DNA of 64,000 bases, from positions 189,261 to 253,260 of the forward strand of contig NW_006763145.1 in NCBI RefSeq assembly GCF_000264905.1. Direction: 5' to 3'. Shown piece by piece: positions 16,090 through 19,798 of the stretch. Origin of the DNA: Stereum hirsutum FP-91666 SS1 (lineage: Eukaryota > Basidiomycota > Agaricomycetes > Russulales > Stereaceae). Position numbers and translations under genes: made by a program. How positions within the stretch are numbered: the stretch's first letter is position 1; every line of letters begins with the position of its first letter. Below the pieces are notes generated by a model, which had not been told where the DNA came from, did no database searches, and saw only the letters and a program-made list of their open reading frames with translations.

Positions 16090-19000
16090 ATGGAGCATCC
16101 AAGCTCTGCCGACATTCAAATGGCTACAGACGTCCTTCCTCATCATCCTCACCCGCCTTCCTCATCGTCTTCGACGTCCCCGACGCAGGCAAATGCGCCC
16201 AACAATGGCCTCAACGGCGTCAACAAACGCTACCGACCCGCGCCAGCGAAAACTTTCCAGTGCAGAGGCTACGGCGGTCAGTCTCTTCGTGCCTGTCCTG
16301 TCTACTCTCGTCCATCGTTCCTGATCTCCTGCCTGTCTACGAACAGATTGTCGCATGGTCTTTAGCAGGTCTGAACACCTGGCCAGACACATCCGGTGCG
16401 TTTCCATTGCTGTCGCTCATGATCGTCTGCTCATCATCATCAATGCCCGCGTCATCATCCTCCATGTTTTTTCCTCTCTTTTTCGCTCCATTTCTAGTAA
16501 ACACACCGGCGAACGACCCTTCACCTGCCACTGCGGCAAGCAGTTCTCCAGGCTCGACAACCTCAGGCAACACGCCCAGACCGTCCACTCCGACAAGCAG
16601 GACCAGAACGAGCGCATGATGCGCGAGCTCACCTCCCTCCACGCCTCCATGGCCGCCGCCAACAAAGCGACCCAACACCGCACCAAACGCGGCGCCAACA
16701 ACGCCAACGCCAACAACGCCAACGCCGCCAACGGGAACGGGAACGGCAACGCCGGCTCCGACGGCATCCACCACCACAACACCTCCGGCTCCGATAACGG
16801 CTCTCCGCCCCTGTCGACGACGATCGTCAAGCAGGAAGAAGGCATCGGCTCGATTCCGATGTCTATGTCGATTCCGCTCCATCAGCGCCCGGGAACGAGT
16901 ACCGGCTACGAGGGCAGCGGCGATTTCGACGTCGACGGCGACGGAGACGCGCATATGAACGGCGGCTACTCCCACCATCCCCACCATAATCATAACCCTG
17001 TTGATCGCTCCCGGGCGGTCAACTCTCATTCCTTTCGTGACTCCCGTCAGTCCTTTCGTGCCCAACAATCTACCAGCGTCGTCGACATCAACAACAACAA
17101 CAACACCCCCTCAGCTCCCCAACTTGGGCAGCACACCCAGTCCTTTCGAGTCCCAGGCGAATTCCACCAGCACCAGCAGCAACCCTCGCCATTCCAATTC
17201 GGTCTCCCCGACCAATCTCAACCACAGCAACGGCCATCCACCTCCGGCGCCACGTCCGCCTTCGTCCGTCCCGGGACTTCAGGCGGCGGGGGTCAACGAC
17301 CGGCCACTGGCTCTGGGGCTACTTCACAACCACAACTCCCGTCACTCACCACAGTCCTCGCCCACACATCCCTCCCACCTCCACTCTCACTCTCACTCTC
17401 CTCACCCTCCACATCCTCTCCATCCGCATCCGCATCCGCATCCTCTCCATCCACATTCACATCCACATCATCCACAACAGCACCCTTCTCCGCACTTCAC
17501 AGGGAACGCGAACGTGAACGTGAACGGGAGCGTGGGGAGTCAACAACATCAATATTTCCCGTTCCCTCCGGGATCAGCAGTCGACCAGGTTCGGGAATCA
17601 GGCCAGGGACCGCTCCGGCGTCGGCGTCGACAGGGTTCGGGTTCGGGTTCGGGGTCGGGTTCGGTGCCGGGGGTGGGTTCGGCGGGGGTGGGACTAGCGG
17701 CGGGTGGTATGGACCTGGGGTTGGATTTGAGCGGGGTGGGTATGAGCGGGGTGGGTATGGCGGGCATGCAGGGAATGGAGGTGGTGGGTATGGGTATGGG
17801 GGTGGGGGTGGATATGCAGGGAATGGACATGGGCATTATGGGCTTGGGGGTGGATTCTATGGGCATGGGCATGGGCATGGGCAGTCTGTCGGGCATGGGC
17901 ATGGGCATGCAGGGAATGGATATGGGGGTGGATATGGGCATGCAGGGAATGGGGGTGGGGGTGGATATGGAAGGGATGGATTGGGCGCTCTACCAACAAG
18001 GACCTCAGCAGCAACAACCGCAGAGTTGGCCCCCGCATCGTTCGCAAGAGTCGCTTTCGGAGGAGTCGAGCACGAGCACTCAGAGGGGGGACCCGAGGGA
18101 GCAGAGGGAGGAAACGATTCACCGTTTTCGTTCCAGCCGCCGCCTATCGCCTCCGAGTCTTCCTCCTCAACAACAGCAGGGTCGGGCGTACCCCCTTCGA
18201 ACCCAAACCCAAACCCAAACCCAAACCCAAACCCTCGGAAACGACCGTTCCCGGGAGACGACGACGAGCACTACAGGCTTGCGAGGCCACACACCTCCGG
18301 GGACGTCATCGGCGGCGGCGGCGGTGGTGGGGGGTCCTATGCTCGGCCAACCACCTCAGGGGACGGGTATGGTCGGCCCACCACCTCAGGCGGCGGGGAC
18401 GGGGCAGATTCAAGACCGGTCTCGAGAAGGCTCTCGGTCATGGAGCTCTGTAATGACACAGATGACGATCCCGGCGCTCGACGGATATTACCCGTCGGTG
18501 TCTCAGTCTCCGCCTCATCAGCATCTTCAGCAGGCGGCGCAGGGTCAGGGGCAGCAGTACAGTCAAGGCCTTCAACTTCAACGGGAAGGCCAGGGACGAG
18601 TGGGGGGAATGGGAATGGGAGGCCAGAGACGAGTGGGGCTGGGCTTGTTAGGTATGCGGAGCAGCTCGCCCTCGGGGACCGGGATGGGGACGATGGGGAC
18701 CGGGATGCAGCCTCCTCCGACTCAGGCTCACCTTCAATCTCAACAACAACAACAACAACATCCGCAAACGCCGCGTCCGCTTCATCCTTCGCACGCACAA
18801 CCTCCTCGTCCGTCGTCTTCGGCGCCGCATTCGCAGCACCTCTCACAGCAACAACAGCAGCAGCAGCAACAACAGCAGCAGTTCCAGCATCCGCCGGCTC
18901 CGCCTTCTTCGGCGCCTCCGCATCAACCACACCCACACCAGGCGCAGCACACCTCCAGCGGCCAACACAACCCCAACAACTCCAACGGCCAGCAGCAAAC

Positions 19001-19798
19001 GCAGCATCCGGTGAGTTATTCGGCCGAGTTGAGGAGACAGCAGCAGGAGCAGCTTCGGCGGCAGTTAACGCAGCAGGTGCGGCGGGACGAGGGGCAGGGT
19101 TCGGGTTCGGGACAGTCTTCGCCGGTCGGGGGACAGGGACAGGGCGATGGGCAGGACGGAGTGGGACAAGGGATAGGGAGGGATCAGCATCAGCTGGGTC
19201 AGAGGGATCGGGATCAGCAGGGTCAGATTCTCCAGAGAGCAGCGTCTCAGCCTCAACCGTCACGTCTCCCGTATTTCGACATGCAACCTCAGGTGCAACC
19301 TCAGTCGCGGGTCGAGCAGGCGTATCAGGCTCAGCAAGTCCATGGGCAGGCGCACGGGGGTCACCAGCAGCGGGTCCGGGCTCACCCGTATTATCATCCG
19401 CATTCTCACCACACCCAGCCGCAAGGTTCGCCGTACGAGGAGTTGGCGGGATTCAACATCAACATGTCCCCGTCTCAGGTGCAGGGTCAGGCTCAGGGGC
19501 AGCAGGTGCAGCAGGTGCAGGACGGGAGTGGAATGGCGATCGGGATAGGGATGAGTATAGACGGTTTGGGGGCGGGGATGGTCAACATGGGAGGCGCAAT
19601 GGGGATGTCGGTGCCTATGATGGGAATGGGAATGGTGGGCGGAATGGGGATGGGAATGGGCGGTGGGGGGATAGGGGGGATCGAGATGGGCGGGATGGGA
19701 GGGATGGGCGGGGGGATGGGAGGGATGCAGGGGTCGGTCCAGGAGTCGTTGAGCTCTCTCCGAGGCAGTCCGCGGGGGTTGTTGGAATGAGGGTTTGA
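16090..19798 (+). CDS. C2H2 zinc-finger transcription factor with long low-complexity tail
   Basis: Exons: 16090-16276, 16347-16395 and 16498-19798 (stop TGA 19796-19798). The start is MEHPSSADIQMATDVLPHHP. Splicing joins KTFQCRGYGDCRMVFSRSEH, LARHIRKHTGERPFTCHCGK and QFSRLDNLRQHAQTVH, giving two consecutive C2H2 fingers with a TGERPF linker of the Msn2/Mig1 type, so it binds DNA in the nucleus. The third exon then runs over 1000 codons in low-complexity sequence: VKQEEG, HQRPGTSTGYEG, RPGTAPAS, a glycine-rich block (about 17640-17970), an NPNPNP repeat, PRKRPFPGDDDEHY and SRRLSVMELCND. I chose this frame up to at least SVMELCND (about 18460) because these short motifs look like conserved elements of agaricomycete relatives. 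From 16959 to 19790 a second forward frame is also open, so the true 3' frame is not certain. Target genes are unknown. Confidence 0.8.
17001..19790 (+). other. Second long open frame overlapping the zinc-finger gene
   Basis: This frame is free of stops from 16959 (just after a TGA at 16956-16958) to 19790. Its translation is also transcription-factor-like. It has HPHPHPHP and GMGMGM runs, QTQTQTQT, a glutamine tract at about 18845-18890 written with mixed CAG and CAA codons, SAELRRQQQEQLRRQLTQQV and SPYEELAGFNINMSPSQV near the end. It has no zinc finger of its own and would need alternative splicing, frameshifting or internal initiation. It may simply be a by-product of GC-rich repeats in the main frame. 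Confidence 0.35.

Follow-up and report, generated by a model that had tools for sequence, protein, structure and literature searches.

Two conserved overlapping tails and a candidate +1 frameshift site in a zinc-finger transcription factor gene of Stereum hirsutum

The window analysed here is a stretch of 64,000 nucleotides from Stereum hirsutum FP-91666 SS1 (contig NW_006763145.1, positions 189,261 to 253,260 of the forward strand; source genome 46 Mb, 38 contigs). It contains a zinc-finger gene whose three exons (Table 1), when conceptually spliced, encode an uninterrupted protein of 1178 amino acids, in which two stretches matched the C2H2 finger family Pfam zf-C2H2 (PF00096) with 37.0 bits at a cut-off of 25.2. 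The product is a two-finger C2H2 transcription factor, which the depositors' names of its homologs would assign to the Usv1/Nsf1 type. The frame of the zinc fingers (codon starts 2 mod 3) is called frame A and the +1 frame (codon starts 0 mod 3) frame B; in an earlier note on this DNA they were numbered 1 and 2. Frame A ends with ...VVGMRV and the stop codon TGA at 19796-19798, while the TGA of frame B lies within the bases ATG AGG coding for VGMRV in frame A, so that frame B ends 8 bases before frame A. Both frames are open, both tails are conserved among Agaricomycetes, and in other species, too, one and the same DNA codes for both. As an explanation we propose that ordinary translation would lead to the 1178-amino-acid frame-A protein, and that a +1 slip of the ribosome at TCC_TTT_CGT would connect the common zinc fingers to the frame-B tail. 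The predicted transframe product comprises 1175 amino acids and has 258 codons in common with the frame-A protein.

Table 1. Features of the zinc-finger gene and its two overlapping frames, in window positions
Feature	Position	Strand	Remark
Exon 1	16090..16276	+	Start codon ATG 16090; common N-terminus and first part of zinc finger 1; conceptual splicing
Intron 1, inferred	16277..16346 (70 nt)	+	GTCAGT...GAACAG; protein context fits homologs FQCRGYG[DE]CRMVFSRSEHLARHIRKHTGERPF
Exon 2	16347..16395	+	Remainder of finger 1; conceptual splicing and Pfam
Intron 2, inferred	16396..16497 (102 nt)	+	GTGCGT...TTCTAG; conceptual splicing
Exon 3	16498..19798	+	Finger 2, linker, dual-coding tail; A-type C-termini in homologs
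Frame-B open reading frame	16959..19790	+	943 codons and stop TGA 19788-19790
Frame-B tail predicted after the shift	17037..19787	+	917 codons, overlaps frame A throughout
Proposed shift site 1	17030..17038	+	TCC_TTT_CGT in frame A, then G; predicted ...NSHSF|VTPVSPFVP
Second in-frame TCC_TTT_CGT	17051..17059	+	Possible back-up
Third in-frame TCC_TTT_CGN (CGA)	17141..17149	+	
Frame-A motif SRRLSVMELCND	18422..18457	+	
Frame-B motif SRSWSSVMTQM	18432..18464	+	Local form of SPSWNSAMTQM; same bases as the SRRLSVMELCND motif
CAG/CAA tract	18846..18881	+	Frame B: 12 Gln; frame A: Thr/Ala
Frame-B motif SYSAELRRQQQEQLRRQ	19014..19064	+	Local form of HYSQELHRQQQEQL

The description of the last exon in the earlier note, open in two frames downstream of the zinc fingers, holds true. 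Frame A is open from 16325 to 19795 (last codon GTT) and frame B from 16959 to 19787, and the third forward frame showed 20 to 21 stops across the same span. The peptides quoted in that note were found in the frames given for them, and the different reading of the CAG/CAA tract in the two frames was described correctly. The suggestion that a repeat-rich exon is open in two frames by chance can be rejected. When the frame-A protein of 17030-19787 was kept and its synonymous codons were permuted, none of 5000 permutations left frame B free of stops (mean 6.0 stops), and with codons drawn at a GC content of the third codon position (GC3) between 0.5 and 0.9, frame B was open in 0 of 3000 draws at each of five settings. 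The converse test, in which frame B was kept, left frame A open in 0 of 5000 permutations and in 0 of 3000 draws at each of three GC3 settings. Frame A itself has a GC3 of 0.87 before the overlap (16499-16955), which falls to 0.52 within it. For the corresponding stretches of four other species, the probability of a frame without stop was at most 0.0125 each at both GC3 settings (400 draws each). The synonymous permutations and the joint back-translation described below thus rule out openness by chance. Apart from this, ATGGGN-like repeats at 17700-17990 and 19540-19740 are read as Met-Gly runs in frame B and as Gly-rich segments in frame A; since such repeats grow in multiples of three, both frames stay open.

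For the homolog search, exon 3 in frame A served as query, and the best 120 of 271 homologs were taken. Two frame-B queries gave 19 and 15 matches with 21 new proteins; one of them scored part of the candidates and the other part of the protein, so that the list of B-type proteins is incomplete. Most of the 120 homologs (proteins are cited by their P numbers) showed an A-type tail with the motifs YDSPFSF, PRKRPF, SRPQSRRLSVMELCND and RRLSVMELCND, ending for instance in VGMRV, VGMKV or LGMRV. In the same fungal groups, B-type tails comprised PFVTPASPFVP, FPST, SPSWNSAMTQM and YSQELHRQQ with an end such as PLPLE, and the alignment identified this tail as frame B of the window. According to motif patterns, the 141 retrieved proteins comprised 99 with A-type motifs only, 31 with B-type motifs only, 5 with both and 6 with neither. 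By eye, P0074 and P0097 among the last six have B-like segments, and P0005 is A-only by pattern, yet its end stands in the +1 relation to the frame-A protein P0017. Named B-type tails were present in Polyporales (Abortiporus), Boletales (Boletus), Russulales (Auriscalpium), Gloeophyllales (Gloeophyllum) and Agaricales (Tetrapyrgos). As far as recognisable, the named homologs are from Agaricomycetes; depositors labelled several of them Up in starvation or Nutrient and stress factor 1. In viral contigs, 130 stretches fitted the search pattern for relatives' DNA, none of which encoded a relative.

Two proteins originating from +1 frames of one DNA must share a possible coding sequence, which is the basis of the joint back-translation. 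P0037 and P0119 of Abortiporus biennis, both under the locus tag ABKN59_010325, could be back-translated jointly in the +1 relation over 567 consecutive codons, compared to a longest run of 13 in 20 shuffles and of 29 for the next best partner of P0119. Further runs comprised 397 codons for P0028/P0131 (Somion occarium and another source), 286 for P0031/P0126 and 237 for P0085/P0086 (two models of Hermanssonia centrifuga). Shorter ones were found for P0049/P0123 (140), P0102/P0101 (114, two Sparassis species), P0022/P0121 (91), P0017/P0005 (91, Lactarius and another source), P0040/P0124 (84) and P0054/P0129 (67). Since related, non-identical sources inside one order often reach 35 to 80 codons, only the long runs are decisive. 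The four longest pairs fix their DNA with 1.5-2% ambiguous bases. Across the back-translated runs no frame-B stop was found, as far as protein records allow; frame-2 stops common in close relatives were part of what the earlier note gave as refuting its reading. The assumption of an assembly or indel error that broke one true frame in this assembly, also raised there, has nothing in its favour except the two-frame appearance itself. The same arrangement is present in other species and other sources, and both frames reach ends of the kinds found in relatives, which leaves this explanation next to no probability.

Conservation of both frames was determined with the window and the four reconstructed DNAs, giving 10 pairs that were aligned in one frame, while the identity in the other frame was compared with 1000 synonymous randomisations. 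Given frame A, 0 to 9 of 1000 randomisations matched the observed identity of frame B in seven of the ten pairs, and given frame B, none of 1000 reached that of frame A in eight; since the randomisation redraws codons independently per species, synonymous sites shared by descent would inflate these results, least so for the pairs with the window. For the pair of Abortiporus and the window, z was 4.1 (B given A) and 4.9 (A given B). A profile of 17 frame-B proteins, uncorrected for composition, gave 193 bits for frame B of the window, compared to 68 +/- 11 in 500 shuffles that kept frame A, and a profile of 19 frame-A proteins, likewise uncorrected, gave 244 bits for frame A, compared to 49 +/- 8 in 500 shuffles that kept frame B. 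In neither case did any shuffle reach the value of the window. Tested as a single block, the PFV block was reached in 0 of 2000 shuffles.

The two tails also restrict each other at single codons, as derived by hand, although many of the proteins counted are close kin and the counts are therefore not independent. In the S-SW--A motif of frame B, 27 of 31 proteins read AM, which forces AAT for the Asn of ELCND in frame A. Among the best 120 homologs, 77 end in the form G-any-[RKIS]-one more, and 68 of these have Met at the second place. The ATG A of the frame-A end contains the frame-B stop, and the codons for K and I and some of those for R and S start with the required A. Glu before the frame-B stop fixes the Gly codon of frame A as GGA; it was present in 28 of 32 frame-B ends.

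Several observations weigh against the conservation of both frames. Frame B given A was unclear in three of the ten pairs (Boletales-window 52, Hermanssonia-window 115 and Boletales-Hermanssonia 536 of 1000), and frame A given B in two (Boletales-Hermanssonia 335 and Hermanssonia-window 360 of 1000). These pairs all involve the stretches of Boletales and Hermanssonia, and these two come for the most part from different regions of the gene. With the composition correction of HMMER, frame B of the window scored -1.6 bits, while 300 shuffles showed a mean of -56 (standard deviation 19) and a maximum of 24.9, so that at least one of them exceeded the window. Due to this weak corrected score, the conservation of frame B is based on the shuffle comparison and the pair test and not on a stand-alone E-value. 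The FPST block, tested singly, was not significant (110 of 2000 shuffles). Furthermore, the frame-B profile applied to 12 proteins, mostly from Agaricales, matched Tetrapyrgos P0097 as the sole protein, which makes the reach of B-type tails into Agaricales less firm, and P0060, P0074 and P0120 remained unmatched, yet they are B-type by eye. Three Marasmius relatives (P0065, P0070, P0083) showed A-type motifs but ends such as VVKFEGGSPILGDMC, which recall frame-B ends and were unmatched by the frame-B profile; these proteins may be hybrid gene models or represent lineages in which the overlap has been resolved.

The weak corrected similarity of frame B would also fit the view that only frame A is translated, with frame B kept open by composition, repeats and conserved codon choice. 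The tails are indeed low in complexity and poor in Leu, Val, Ile and Met, which leads to fewer stops in the +1 frame. However, no permutation preserved the open frame B, the stretches of the other species would hardly be free of stops by chance, frame-B constraint beyond that of frame A appeared in seven of the ten pairs and in the profile test, and a B-type motif in 31 proteins and a B-type end in 32 were observed, so that translation of frame A only is very improbable. Altogether, the comparisons argue strongly that the overlap, 917 codons in the window, is a long and old dual-coding region with both tails conserved, which we regard as nearly certain. The preference of the earlier note for frame 2 as the selected reading at the CAG/CAA tract was therefore not quite right, since the same bases show conservation in either frame.

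The conserved part of frame B starts with PFVTPVSPFVP at 17031, downstream of the opening of the frame at 16959. At this point frame A reads CAT TCC TTT CGT GAC TCC CGT CAG TCC TTT CGT, and its first TCC TTT CGT (site 1) is a zero-frame sequence located at the 5' boundary of the +1 overlap. Of the frame-A Phe codons of exon 3, 8 are TTT and 30 are TTC, and four of the eight TTT codons are followed by CGN. Ten frame-B sequences that read over site 1 have PFV, implying TTT CGT (nine by pattern and Moniliophthora P0074 by eye), whereby the nine were selected with a PFV-containing pattern and the count is partly circular. In other frame-B models the start or the switch lies at a different place, and P0120 is not readable at site 1. 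Since the second site of Sparassis reads PFL, site 1 is the constant one. The identity among five polypore-like frame-B open reading frames, which were picked by the site motif, increased from 0.56 upstream to 0.71 from the site on, and that among six polypore frame-A proteins changed from 0.88 to 0.74 at the site, with small sets and species that differ from the frame-B set. The stretch before the site, SDVDRPN.RPTNSHSFRD, is well conserved in polypore frame A and is a possible nascent-peptide stimulator as in antizyme. In the genome, CATTCCTTTCGNGA occurs at five further places (L009-L011, L013, L014), six in all, and the reversed control pattern twice.

The frame is probably switched by +1 frameshifting at UCC_UUU_CGU, and the production of two proteins by a programmed frameshift is the best supported of the alternatives named in the earlier note. 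Other features of the site do not fit this assumption well. No stable RNA structure was found 3' of the site (z -0.33), and CGT does not appear to be rare, with a share of 0.27 among the 260 Arg codons that ten long open reading frames of the window (presumed genes) contain; upstream in exon 3, it is used for 0 of 8 Arg codons. The codon before the site (CAT, inferred) is common to nine of the ten sequences, although frameshifting alone needs no such thing. Shifting of the PA-X type is about 1% efficient in the account given in PMC3498833, and so low an efficiency would sit oddly with selection on a very long tail.

As the main alternative, dual coding could be real and the frame chosen by alternative splicing, through an optional intron or a choice of splice sites in the stretch from the zinc fingers to HSFRD, in the manner of INK4a/ARF-like genes. 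This explanation draws on Abortiporus biennis, where ABKN59_010325 is annotated with both tails via an intron near GTSTG and the annotated intron of P0037/P0119 reaches the two frames by different junctions, which speaks against a ribosomal switch; other annotations likewise give models of zinc fingers joined to frame B (P0022, P0030, P0101, P0102, P0119 and others). In the window, however, AG is absent from 16959 to 17048, so that no standard acceptor could enter frame B between its last stop and VTPVS. A scan for GT-AG pairs of 40 to 400 bases, with the donor in 16498-17033 and the acceptor up to 17099, gave four pairs of the right phase with the donors GTCGAC, GTCTAT, GTCGAT and GTACCG. None of these follows GTRNG, and all four bridges were rejected, having weak donors and entering beyond the conserved VTPVS block. 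Frame-B proteins of Boletales have TII before PFV, which by hand implies AAC AAT CAT and no AG just upstream. By eye, the annotated switch points vary among species from GTSTG to beyond MELCND, as would be expected if gene predictors bridge a frame switch which they cannot model. Of 81 models with both GTSTG and HSFR, a set that by construction omits models leaving frame A before HSFR, 80 run from GTSTG-Y... into HSFR in frame A, the exception being Abortiporus P0037. Within these limits, a usable and conserved junction from frame A to frame B was found neither in the window nor, Abortiporus aside, in the gene models. The small intron proposed in the earlier note is thus poorly supported in the window and retains the Abortiporus annotation in its favour, and splicing as the switch appears rather unlikely. 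Within the overlap, GTGAGT at 19011-19016 resembles a consensus donor; as a frame switch it was discarded, since the nearest plausible acceptors, by eye, take out a multiple of three bases.

A further explanation treats frame B as a separate protein that arises by internal initiation and is not fused to the zinc fingers, in line with frame-B open reading frames in protein collections that begin at internal ATGs. The first frame-B ATG of the window, however, lies 224 codons beyond the site and the PFVTPVSPFVP block, and the start points vary among relatives, which makes this origin highly improbable. We infer the production of both proteins, a switch by the ribosome at site 1 and a different regulation of genes by the two forms. 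With one DNA-binding domain shared by two different tails, the minor form might modulate the major one or compete with it.

The closest known counterpart is influenza PA-X, for which UCC_UUU_CGU is described as a proven +1 site with a shift peptide, GLWDSFVSPR, that reads SFV (PMC3498833). Site 1 of the window consists of the identical nine bases in the same position relative to the overlap, and its predicted junction is likewise S-F-V (HSF|VTP). A stimulatory structure, not seen at the window site, is not evident for PA-X either (PMC5009743). In contrast to PA-X, whose overlap is given as 41 or 61 codons, the predicted overlap of the window comprises 917 codons, lies in a nuclear fungal gene, extends to the end of both frames and contains the motif three times (UCC_UUU_CGN), and its site is a candidate. 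The idea of a cellular gene with a PA-X-like site is not wholly new, since a conserved UCC_UUU_CGU was proposed for vertebrate ASXL1-TF together with a conserved +1 open reading frame of about 150 codons and synonymous constraint in the zero frame, as outlined in PMC5644247. Both cases concern a gene of transcriptional regulation with the same motif and are based on comparative evidence. According to this source, the 150 codons of ASXL1-TF lie mid-gene and the product is truncated relative to the zero frame, whereas both predicted products of the window gene are full length.

Agaricomycete antizymes are described as using a +1 shift at UUU_UGA (PMC4505036). They share the P-site UUU, the +1 direction and the fungal class with the window gene, but by that account their shift takes place at a stop codon and involves a nascent-peptide signal as well as a structure on the 3' side, and they need both frames for one protein. 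An antizyme domain was found in the same genome (34.2 bits); its gene (contig C14, L008) contains TTT_TGA after ...NQQWRF near L008:709, upstream of the domain (near 1501-1650), and a second TTTTGA near L008:1439. Within this genome, the gene offers a reference for +1 frameshifting, and it makes a +1 shift more plausible in this host.

To our knowledge, no dual-coding tail has been described for Usv101, Usv1 (Nsf1) or Rgm1, factors to which the window gene is likened by its adjacent C2H2 fingers and via the depositors' names of homologs. The orthologs of USV101 are stated to be USV1/NSF1 and RGM1 (PMC4850258). A search of open-licence papers, mostly by their titles, found nothing on this gene, on a use of the motif in fungal cellular genes, or on an overlap of such length.

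On balance, the sequence comparisons favour the assumption that across mushroom-forming fungi one transcription factor is made from the same bases in two full-length forms, alike in the DNA-binding domain and unrelated in their tails, by a +1 frameshift of the PA-X type. If this holds true, we know of no longer conserved dual-coding region in any nuclear genome. It would also show UCC_UUU_CGU in use in fungi for the first time and offer a natural experiment on the evolution of two low-complexity regulatory tails that constrain each other. Two such mutually constrained tails across several fungal orders would stand out as unusual in molecular evolution. The candidate is much larger than ASXL1 and, since fungi allow reporters, tagging and frame-specific changes, directly testable. 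Many fungal genome records of this factor seem to be incomplete, as they contain one tail, the other tail, or a hybrid whose connecting introns are possibly not real. As a minor observation, a run of 19 T is located at 19862-19880, about 65 bases 3' of the frame-A stop.

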